Positions 33,731 to 37,072 of a stretch of DNA of 64,000 nt are shown piece by piece. The position numbers and the translations under genes are program-made. Source of the DNA: Alphaproteobacteria bacterium. Lineage in GTDB: Bacteria > Pseudomonadota > Alphaproteobacteria > UBA8366 > Aestuariispiraceae. The notes under the pieces are model-generated. The model searched no databases. It was given only the letters and a program-made list of their open reading frames with translations, and was not told where the DNA came from. Location of the stretch: the NCBI GenBank assembly GCA_030065235.1, contig JASJDC010000005.1:186001-250000 (forward strand), in the 5' to 3' direction. How positions within the stretch are numbered: position 1 is the stretch's first letter; each line of letters opens with the position of its first letter.

Positions 33731-34693
33731 ATGGCGACAGAACATTCCAAGGTCTTGATCATCGGCTCAGGCCCGGCCGGCTATACGGCGGCGATTTATG
33801 TGGCGCGCGCCAATCTGGCCCCGACCATTGTCGCGGGGCTGCAGCCGGGCGGCCAGCTGACCATCACCACCGATGTCGAGAATTACCCCGGCTACGCCGA
33901 CGTCATCCAGGGCCCCTGGCTGATGGAGCAAATGCGCGAACAGGCGGAGAATGTCGGCGCCAAGATCGTCTATGATATTATCACCGACGTCGACTTCACC
34001 CAGCGGCCGCTTCGCGCAACCGCTGATAGCGGCGCGGTCTTCACCGCCGATGCGGTAATCATCACCACAGGGGCCCAGGCGCGCTGGCTCGGCCTGCCGT
34101 CAGAGCAGACTTTCCAGGGTTTCGGCGTGTCGGCCTGCGCGACCTGCGACGGGTTCTTCTATCGCGGCAAGGAGGTCGCGGTGATCGGCGGCGGCAACAC
34201 CGCCGTCGAGGAAGCCTTGTACCTCACCAACCACGCCACCAAGGTGACTCTGATTCATCGCCGCGACAGTCTGCGGGCCGAGAAGATCTTGCAGGACCGC
34301 CTGCTCTCTCATGACAAGATCGATGTAATCTGGGACAGCACGCTGGAAGAGATCGTCGGCGATCAGGACCCGCTCGGCGTTACCGGGCTCCGCTTGAAAA
34401 ATGTGAAGACCGGCGCCGAGCGCCTGCTTCCCGTCCATGGCGTCTTCGTCGCCATCGGCCACGACCCTGCAACCGCCGTTTTCAAAGGCGCGGTCGAGAT
34501 GGATGAGGAAGGCTATATCCTAACCGTCCCCGGCGGCGTCACGACCAATATTCCCGGCGTCTTCGCCGCGGGCGACGTCGTCGACAAAATCTATCGCCAG
34601 GCGGTGACCGCCGCCGGAATGGGCTGTATGGCGGCGCTTGATGCGGAGAAATATCTCGCGGGGCTCGAAAGCGCGCTTCAGGCGGCTGAATGA
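33731..34693 (+). CDS. trxB: Thioredoxin-disulfide reductase
   Basis: This 320-residue flavoprotein reduces thioredoxin with NADPH. The FAD motif is [12 protein letters not shown] (12-23), the redox-active pair is C136-A-T-C139, and the NADPH fold starts at [11 protein letters not shown]. The end motif [27 protein letters not shown] is fully conserved. GAGGA precedes the ATG. It stands 86 bp after folA and may have its own promoter. Confidence 0.97.
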
Positions 34694-34870: not shown

Positions 34871-35428
34871 ATGAGTCTTTTCACCAAGAAATCGGCGGAG
34901 CCGAAGCCGAACCAACCCGCGCGCGCCACCTATATCGCGGCCGGGTCGATCATCACCGGCGACTTGGCGTCGGATGGCGAATTGCAGATGGATGGGGTTC
35001 TGCGCGGCAATGTTTCCTGCCGACGTCTTGTGGTCGGTCAGAACGGCGAGCTTCATGGTGAGGTTACCGCCGACACGCTGATCGTGGACGGCGCCATCTT
35101 TGGCGCTGTGAAGGCGAAGACGGTTTTGCTCGGCGCCTCAGCGCGGATGATTGGCGACGTCGATCACGAAGTGCTTGAAGTGCGTCCCGGCGCGGAGATC
35201 GAAGGGCGCTACAGTCAGTCGAGTTTCGCCGGGCGCAAGGATATGCGCGGCAAATCGAAACCGGGCCTGAAATTCAGCGCGATGCAGAAGCAAGCGCCGC
35301 CGTCGGCGCCGGGCAAGCCGCCCGCCAAGACGCCGCTGCCGGGACAGAACGGCGCGGATGCGGACTCCGATGCTGCAACGACACAGATCGAAGCATCCAG
35401 CGCGCCGGATCGTCCCTCGACCCATTGA
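34871..35428 (+). CDS. Bactofilin (polymer-forming cytoskeletal protein)
   Basis: This 185-residue bactofilin polymerises into filaments that scaffold cell-wall or stalk machinery in alphaproteobacteria. The DUF583 beta-helix core covers about residues 18-115, with repeating short strands (ITGDLASDGELQMDGVLRGNVSC, GELHGEVTADTLIVDGAIFGAVKAKTV). The C-terminal 70 residues are Pro/Ala/Lys-rich and disordered. A GGGAG site precedes the ATG. No peptidoglycan gene is adjacent. Confidence 0.93.
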   Translation: MSLFTKKSAEPKPNQPARATYIAAGSIITGDLASDGELQMDGVLRGNVSCRRLVVGQNGELHGEVTADTLIVDGAIFGAVKAKTVLLGASARMIGDVDHEVLEVRPGAEIEGRYSQSSFAGRKDMRGKSKPGLKFSAMQKQAPPSAPGKPPAKTPLPGQNGADADSDAATTQIEASSAPDRPSTH

Positions 35429-35470
35429 TATGCTTGGGCGCCGGCGCACTCCCCGCTGCGCGCCTAAATC

Positions 35471-37072
35471 CTAGATCTGAGCGAAACCAATCGTGCGCGC
35501 GCCTTTGACGGGCCGCGCGGCGGGCGGGCCGACCATACGCTGTTTGACCGGCGGGTGCAGGATTTGCGGCCCCGTTATGTCGACGACGCCTTCGCGCCGC
35601 CTGTACTCAAGCGCCAACGTCACCGGTTGGGTCGGCGCGTCGAACCGGATCGTAACCGGGCCTGCGCCGGAAAGGCCGTCACATTCGGCGATCACCGCGC
35701 CTGTCGCCCGGTTCACGACCGCGATCGGCGGCGTTTGCGCGGCTTGCGAAGGCGTAATCACAAGAATCACGCGCCTCAGCGGCTCCCGGAATGCGTCCGC
35801 CAGCGCGCGCTCTCGGATCCGCGTCCAATCACCTTCCGCCGGCATGGGCGCCGCCGTCTCTTCGGTCTCGACGGATAGGCTGTAGGTGAGATGCGGCGCG
35901 TTCTCGCCCTCTGAGCCCGTAAATGGGCCACCGTCAGACGCCGCCGATAAGTGAGTCGGTTTGATGAATCTCACAGGCGCCGGCGCCGCCAGAAGCGGGC
36001 CGACAGGGCGGCGCTCGACGCGTGGAACCGGCGTAGATCGCGCCGATGGGGTTGCAATGCGGCGGCGCCCGCCCTGTCCGATGACATGCGCTTCCTGCAA
36101 GGGCGCGCTTTCTCGACGGGCGTGCGCCAAAGCCGCGCTCAACTGGCGGGCCGCGTGCTGGCGCGCTGGGTCCTGGGGCGGTTCATCCGACAGCAGCCTC
36201 AGGATGGGGTGATCGTAGAACAGTCCGCGCCAAAGCGCCGCCAAATCGGCCGGCTGAAGGCGCTCTGTCAGCCGAAGCGGCGTCGCGTCCAAAAGCGCAT
36301 CGATCGTATCAATCGCGGCCCCGAGTTCACGCATGCGAACCACATGATCGGGCGCGTCCTCATGCCGGCGCAAGTCCGGGTCGGCGCGCCATAGCGCCAG
36401 CGCAAGGCGGGCGTCGCCGCGCGCCAGCGCAAGTTCGAAACGAAGCGCCGCGTTCAACGATGGTTCAGGCGACGCCGCCGCACCTGGAATCCCGGTCGGC
36501 GCCGACGCCAATAAAGCGGACAGGCAAGGCCTCAGCAATCGGCGCCTCTTTGTGACCGCGCCCTTTGGGTCCCACCACCGATCGCAGCCGGTCAGTGTGA
36601 CCAAACCGCGCCTGTCTACCGCCACATCCCTGGCGGTCACACCGTCCAGCGCCTCGCCAAACCGATGCAGATGCGTCATCAGGAAATTCAGGTGATCGGC
36701 GGCGGCGCAACGCGCCGCCACTTGGACCGCTTCGACGGCGCGAGCTTCCGCGAGCGGCATTATGAAGCCGACAAACTGGTCCGATCCGTCGACCAAGATC
36801 GCGCTCGGCCAGGCGAAGGATACATGACAGGGACGCAATGACGGGTCCGGCGGGCGCGACCGCATCATCGCCTCCAGCTTCAAGCGCTGGTTCGGGGCGG
36901 GCCGATGATAGATCTTGGCGGCGACGCCGACGCGGTCGGTGCTGTAAATACTCGCCGCTGGCGAGCGAGCCAGCCGGCGCTCCAAGCAAATCAGGGCGCC
37001 CGTGCCGGTTTCGCCGACAAGCCTGAGGATCTGGCCGAAACGGTCGCGGCCACCGCCTGATCGATGCGCCAT
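35471..37072 (-). CDS. Degenerate YegI-like kinase fold protein
   Basis: This 533-residue protein has an N-terminal part that tracks the YegI/TerY-type kinase family. It shows a Gly-rich loop remnant GETGTGA (20-26), the lysine motif AAKIYH (K53), WPSAILVDG and GFIMPL (102-107). The catalytic region reads DGVTARDVAVDRRGLVTLTGCDRWW. Compared with the family pattern GDvN..NvlV...LIDcDSF, the catalytic Asp, the Asn residues and the first metal Asp are all changed. It is therefore probably a pseudokinase. Residues 200-300 are helical, 320-420 Pro/Ala-rich, and a beta-rich tail follows. The gene is convergent with bactofilin. Function is unknown. Confidence 0.7.
   Translation of the reverse strand: MAHRSGGGRDRFGQILRLVGETGTGALICLERRLARSPAASIYSTDRVGVAAKIYHRPAPNQRLKLEAMMRSRPPDPSLRPCHVSFAWPSAILVDGSDQFVGFIMPLAEARAVEAVQVAARCAAADHLNFLMTHLHRFGEALDGVTARDVAVDRRGLVTLTGCDRWWDPKGAVTKRRRLLRPCLSALLASAPTGIPGAAASPEPSLNAALRFELALARGDARLALALWRADPDLRRHEDAPDHVVRMRELGAAIDTIDALLDATPLRLTERLQPADLAALWRGLFYDHPILRLLSDEPPQDPARQHAARQLSAALAHARRESAPLQEAHVIGQGGRRRIATPSARSTPVPRVERRPVGPLLAAPAPVRFIKPTHLSAASDGGPFTGSEGENAPHLTYSLSVETEETAAPMPAEGDWTRIRERALADAFREPLRRVILVITPSQAAQTPPIAVVNRATGAVIAECDGLSGAGPVTIRFDAPTQPVTLALEYRRREGVVDITGPQILHPPVKQRMVGPPAARPVKGARTIGFAQI

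Follow-up and report, generated by a model that had tools for sequence, protein, structure and literature searches.

A probably inactive descendant of a YegI-like triad kinase without its C-lobe in the family Aestuariispiraceae

The window, i.e., the whole stretch of 64,000 nucleotides analyzed here, carries on its reverse strand an open reading frame of 533 codons. A bactofilin gene lies convergent to it on one side, and a gene resembling gamma-butyrobetaine dioxygenase lies divergent from it on the other. When compared with Pfam and NCBIfam, the product of the reading frame gave no family match up to an E-value of 1. The neighboring genes and the parts of the protein referred to below, with the evidence for each, are as follows.

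33731..34693 (+): trxB (thioredoxin reductase), named by eye; synteny anchor found in 14/14 genomes of the family
34871..35428 (+): bactofilin gene (PF04519), the convergent neighbor; by synteny, it marks the slot shared with genus g4
35471..37072 (-): putative pseudokinase ORF, YegI-like, 533 amino acids; read from ATG, homology to eight kinases of the family
36737..37030 (-): kinase N-lobe, residues about 15-112; alignment A1, strand and helix order of the model, VIA-align
36572..36736 (-): what is left of alphaE, of the catalytic loop (reading DGVTARDVAVD) and of the DFG-type motif (reading TGCDRW), residues about 113-167; invariant columns
36461..36571 (-): junction where the C-lobe and the CPWC motif are missing, residues about 168-204; spacing versus relatives
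36287..36460 (-): middle segment of helices, which contains ALARGDARLALALW, residues about 205-262; invariant columns
35903..36286 (-): linker, residues about 263-390; invariant columns, local alignment with a gene at locus L084
35474..35902 (-): C-terminal beta domain, residues about 391-533; model, and profile A4 (E 5.4e-34, a self-including match, since the profile contains the window row itself)

Matches to the window protein were found in 9/79 genomes searched, its own and eight others, all belonging to its own family (NCBI family Aestuariispiraceae) and to genera g3 and g6; a search of the 14 family genomes returned the same nine. The eight relatives are kinases of 604-681 amino acids (lengths that depend on the chosen start codons), including those of the named organisms Marivibrio halodurans (L027) and Pacificispira spongiicola (L028). 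In Pfam, both relatives scanned (L027 and L028) match Pkinase; the two genes that precede the L028 kinase match VWA and PP2C_2. A complete VWA-PP2C-kinase operon, with the three genes side by side by coordinates, is present in 8/14 family genomes, the VWA gene of the module being found in eight and the PP2C gene in ten. A profile of the eight kinases built without the window row (A3) matched the window protein with an E-value of 8e-25 over 437 columns, and this homology extends across the C-lobe gap. Judged by these sequence comparisons, the window gene is a descendant of the kinase of a VWA-PP2C-kinase module of the YegI/TerY type ("TerY-type" being a name given to such triads). Where the initial annotation had spoken of an unknown system, the parent is this triad, which has the same kinds of genes as E. 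coli yegL-pphC-yegI.

In the window genome, neither VWA nor PP2C of the module was detected at an E-value of 0.001 with queries that match 8 and 10 of the 14 family genomes, respectively. When the region at 34-40 kb was searched for remnants with the relatives' PP2C and VWA proteins, VWA remained unmatched; a PP2C-like stretch of 34 residues at about 35374-35475 (+), with an E-value of 0.04, was at chance level. A single-sequence scan of genome contigs with the window protein retrieved 18 pattern stretches and no relative. The catalogue of named genomes yielded matches to the alignment query only, namely 112 pattern stretches and eight loci, seven with kinases of the family and one (L034) with a distant actinobacterial kinase. 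No second genome with the architecture of the window gene was found among the genomes searched. Two of the catalogue records call for a comment of their own. CP051228.1 (L030), titled "MAG: Mesoflavibacter sp.", a Bacteroidota name, carries this alphaproteobacterial kinase; genome G011, the likely counterpart of L030, is placed in the window's family, so the title looks wrong. The distant kinase, from Paractinoplanes tereljensis (L034:6064-7824), is YegI-like, with GD, DCDS and CPWC motifs, and also matches the class IV lanthionine synthetase model, far below the cut-off.

Kinase and PP2C motifs are given here the catalytic roles usually assigned to them. Columns invariant in the eight relatives were counted in a nine-row alignment with the window protein, with region borders set after the alignment had been viewed; the window protein keeps 19/23 of them in residues 1-112 (N-lobe), 10/54 from alphaE to the DFG-type motif (30 deleted, 14 substituted), 7/44 in the C-lobe slot (27 deleted, 10 substituted), 14/21 in the middle helices, 7/9 in the linker and 11/19 in the C-terminal domain. 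The N-lobe count differs from that of the aligned catalytic-region columns (10/24) with a Fisher p of 0.006. As can be seen from the same alignment, the beta3 lysine (Lys53) is kept and the glycine loop is lost, the SGEA of most relatives reading SPAA here (G to P at 38, E to A at 39). In the catalytic GDxxPxN motif, the HRD-type Asp is replaced by Gly at 144 and Asn by Asp at 149, and the DFG-type Asp of DCDS is replaced by Gly at 162. The initial annotation, which had the catalytic Asp and Asn residues replaced, is borne out at all three positions. The motifs that it quoted as following the order of the YegI/TerY-linked family are all present in that order, although the alignment puts one of them, GETGTGA, before the true glycine loop and not in it.

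The loss is larger than the initial annotation had noticed, and its main part, the C-lobe, had escaped notice. The distance from DCDS to ALARGD is 190-193 residues in 8/8 relatives, while that from GCDR to ALARGD in the window protein is 49; the distance from AWP to the GD position is 67 residues in the relatives and 53 in the window protein. Compared with all eight relatives, the net loss amounts to about 141 + 14 residues in two stretches. The C-lobe together with the CPWC motif (about 140 residues) is missing; what is retained is the N-lobe, the helices of the middle segment and the C-terminal beta domain. Since the C-lobe is missing, the window protein is almost surely catalytically dead, and we regard its identity as a C-lobe-less descendant of a YegI-like triad kinase as highly probable. 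We infer that it is unable to phosphorylate.

One could argue that the protein is instead an active, if unusual, kinase with displaced catalytic residues, e.g., D143, the residue immediately preceding the HRD position. The D143-G144 pair does resemble a swapped GD, Lys53 is in place, and E. coli YegI is itself called lacking in conserved motifs in the title of a paper in the reference list of PMC13232886. However, the DFG-type Asp and the glycine loop are lost, the activation segment and the C-lobe are absent, and E. coli YegI itself retains GD, LIDSDS and a C-lobe through CPWC, which makes such activity highly improbable. Since the architecture rests on a single genome, an error of assembly or sequencing that took out the C-lobe in frame should also be considered. 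This, too, strikes us as very unlikely: the deletion does not cover the catalytic substitutions, which would need a cause of their own, the gene sits within a contig of 364,506 bases, and the kinase part is missing from the same slot in genus g4. Orthologues with intact catalytic residues, to which the initial annotation had looked for a refutation, do exist in the eight relatives, but their alignment with the window protein keeps the same register. For this reason, we read the loss of the kinase as derived and not as a misreading; by this alignment, it belongs to the window lineage.

The structure model of the window protein has low overall confidence (pLDDT 54.6). Its residues at about 15-106 form strands and helices in the same order as in a kinase N-lobe. 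Foldseek with this model returned nothing at an E-value of 0.001 or better, the best match (0.03) being to an entry containing a pseudokinase. In a VIA-align comparison with the PDB, the 50 matches listed are all kinases or pseudokinases by title; the best Z among the matches listed, to PknA over residues 9-112, is 8.2, a value near the range that VIA-align calls common and obtained with a model built on an alignment with kinases. These matches back the N-lobe assignment of the model by way of support rather than proof, and since Foldseek gave no match at 0.001, the assignment rests on the alignment, the model topology and VIA-align. Thus, the initial description of the protein as YegI-like with its catalytic residues lost stands, and the kinase fold that went with it is recovered for the N-lobe (model residues about 13-117) but not for a C-lobe. 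The model of an intact relative, L028, has a pLDDT of 80.9, and the 50 matches listed for it are all kinases.

The C-terminal 330 residues had been described as having no recognizable domain, and indeed no curated family matches them. By alignment and profile, however, they are the family's own tail: the middle helices and the C-terminal beta domain match the relatives' tail in profile A3, made without the window row, and since both segments are kept, the unrecognized stretch is the normal tail of the family. In residues 431-510 of the C-terminal beta domain, most blocks of ten residues are modeled with a pLDDT of 78-85. The tail profile A4 had no match up to an E-value of 1 among solved structures. 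It matches 11/43 genomes of the order, all within the window's family; in a draw of 385 genomes from the larger set for the class, with no more than 11 candidates scored per genome among the matches listed, it matched five, three of them family members including the window's own. The other two (E 1e-4 and 5e-4) are weak, contain internal stops and were not counted as relatives.

DNA beside trxB was taken in 13 other family genomes for comparison of the slot. In 2/2 g4 genomes, the slot beside trxB-bactofilin contains a PP2C gene followed by a short gene that matches the window tail alone; no VWA or kinase match was found in the slot of either genome. The contig of G006 ends beside trxB and does not cover the slot, and the stretches taken beside trxB in the other 10 family genomes contained no match to the window protein. 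In local alignment, window residues 315-515 match the short gene at L084 with 54 identities in 158 aligned positions, the second half of the linker aligning with the start of that gene, and residues 448-521 align with the short gene at L081. In both g4 genomes, the frames are open and the start of the short gene overlaps the PP2C stop (ATGA); the kinase start overlaps the PP2C stop in the same way in four of five intact modules examined (L028, L029, L032 and L033, not L027). Like the window gene, the g4 pair occupies a slot convergent with bactofilin and has a homologous tail; unlike it, the pair has no kinase part but still includes a PP2C gene, whose metal-site motifs are altered.

Pfam assigns PP2C_2 to both g4 PP2C proteins and no family to the short genes next to them. 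ADG, GDG and TDG are kept in all six intact PP2C rows aligned (of eight); TDG reads TEG in G008 and TNG in G003, and the G003 protein carries further changes of ADG to AEG and of GDG to GEG. The PP2C genes at L081:2634-3386 and L084:4746-5504, each overlapping a gene for the C-terminal domain only, are candidate pseudophosphatases. Between the bactofilin gene and the remnant in G003 lies a gene (L084:3458-4111) that reads by eye like a ribosome-hibernation/cold-shock fusion. A three-protein tree, unrooted (no outgroup) and with bactofilin missing for G006, splits the window genome and g4 from the other 11 genomes with 100% ultrafast bootstrap.

By the NG86 method, which is rough here since dS is often above 1, the g4 pair gives a dN of 0.38 and a dS of 1.64 for PP2C (ratio about 0.23), 0.77 and 1.50 for the tail (ratio about 0.5) and 0.11 and 1.04 for trxB, while in five intact pairs, which share genomes, dN/dS is 0.05-0.39 for the kinase part, 0.09-0.55 for the C-terminal domain and 0.04-0.42 for PP2C. 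Compared with the intact pairs, the ratio of about 0.23 indicates that the g4 PP2C is still constrained; the g4 tail, with a ratio of about 0.5 close to the highest values of the intact pairs, is constrained only weakly.

The window gene may be retained or it may be decaying. In the main rival to retention, the VWA and PP2C genes disappeared, then the active site and the C-lobe, and the remaining frame drifts with an idle product, the decay being young or slow. We consider that this account has a sizeable chance of being correct, although short of an even one. The real frame of the whole ORF has the best codon score of the six; at 0.159 bits per codon, it is the weakest of 14 genes scored, the 13 neighboring genes, scored on their own training set, having 0.27-0.54. 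The score is negative in two of eight segments (residues 135-201, at the C-lobe junction, and 336-402), and an antisense frame outscores the real one in two of eight. The partners of the module were not found in the window genome, the architecture was not found in any other genome searched, and the g4 remnants are shorter still and fast evolving. Both the weak codon signal and the lack of partners favor decay.

Against decay stand 533 codons that are free of stops despite heavy divergence. In a neutral-drift simulation that started from the present ORF, contained no indels and assumed 62% GC, 0.6% of 1000 sequences were stop-free at 0.2 substitutions per site, and 0/1000 were at each of 0.3, 0.5 and 1.0. 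Conservation is also uneven. Of the N-lobe columns invariant in six g6 kinases, the window protein keeps 24/41, nearly as many as each intact g3 kinase (27/41). In the catalytic part, where 45 of 76 columns are deleted, it keeps 12 of the 31 that remain aligned, versus 58/76 in each g3 kinase. The other two parts tell against retention, the corresponding values being 15/27 versus 22/27 for the middle segment (p 0.08) and 12/24 versus 20/24 for the C-terminal domain (p 0.03). Lastly, the ATGA overlap and the open frames persist in both g4 genomes. Both the open frame and the well-kept N-lobe of the window gene favor retention, as do the top score of the real frame among the six and the low dN relative to dS of the g4 PP2C pair in spite of its changed metal-site motifs.

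We prefer, with a probability of roughly 0.57 for the explanation as a whole, to regard the window gene as the dead descendant of a triad kinase that is retained as a non-catalytic binding protein. In this account, the module would have stood beside trxB-bactofilin in the ancestor shared by the window genus and g4. The enzymes of the module would have died stepwise, with catalysis abandoned at this slot, and the remaining non-catalytic protein would have been kept and would still be under some selection. The N-lobe, the helical segment and the C-terminal beta domain would probably still bind the former recruits or signals of the kinase, as an adaptor or sensor. The scaffold role that the initial annotation had proposed is likewise putative.

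The Aestuariispiraceae triad kinases (e.g., L027 and L028) share the N-lobe, middle helices, linker and C-terminal beta domain with the window protein and differ from it in that their GD..N and DCDS motifs are intact, they possess a C-lobe with CPWC, and VWA and PP2C genes adjoin them. The corresponding region of E. coli K-12 carries yegL, pphC, yegJ and yegI. The kinase part of E. coli YegI is related to the profile of the eight kinases (E 5e-38, 321 columns), and since this match ends just after CPWC, the family tail lies outside it. YegL and PphC are the same kinds of partners (VWA and PP2C_2) as in the Aestuariispiraceae triad, and PphC retains the ADG, GDG, TDG and DD motifs. Unlike the window protein, YegI keeps the C-lobe and CPWC. 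Pfam finds no helix-hairpin-helix in the window protein and a weak match to one (HHH_5), below the cut-off, in the YegI tail. PMC13232886 (2026) states that earlier studies had been unable to establish a condition under which yegI and pphC expression is promoted; further YegI/PphC papers (PMC7658054 and PMC6112009) are cited via that article. Among the papers listed by a full-text literature search, judged by titles and the starts of abstracts, no title concerned a truncated YegI-like pseudokinase.

Both E. coli and these alphaproteobacteria have the VWA-PP2C-kinase triad, which is poorly understood. A wider and rather doubtful proposal is that in the clade that unites the window genus with g4, a full kinase/phosphatase switch may have turned into a catalysis-free system, the activities of kinase and PP2C both being lost, in an order that differs between genera, and portions of the two proteins still being selected as binding modules. 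If true, a YegI/PphC-type module would have given rise here to a bacterial pseudokinase/pseudophosphatase derivative. The genomes provide a natural series, from the intact triad through an altered PP2C with a tail to a kinase remnant with a tail, and this series points to the C-terminal domain and the N-lobe as parts that may act apart from phosphotransfer.
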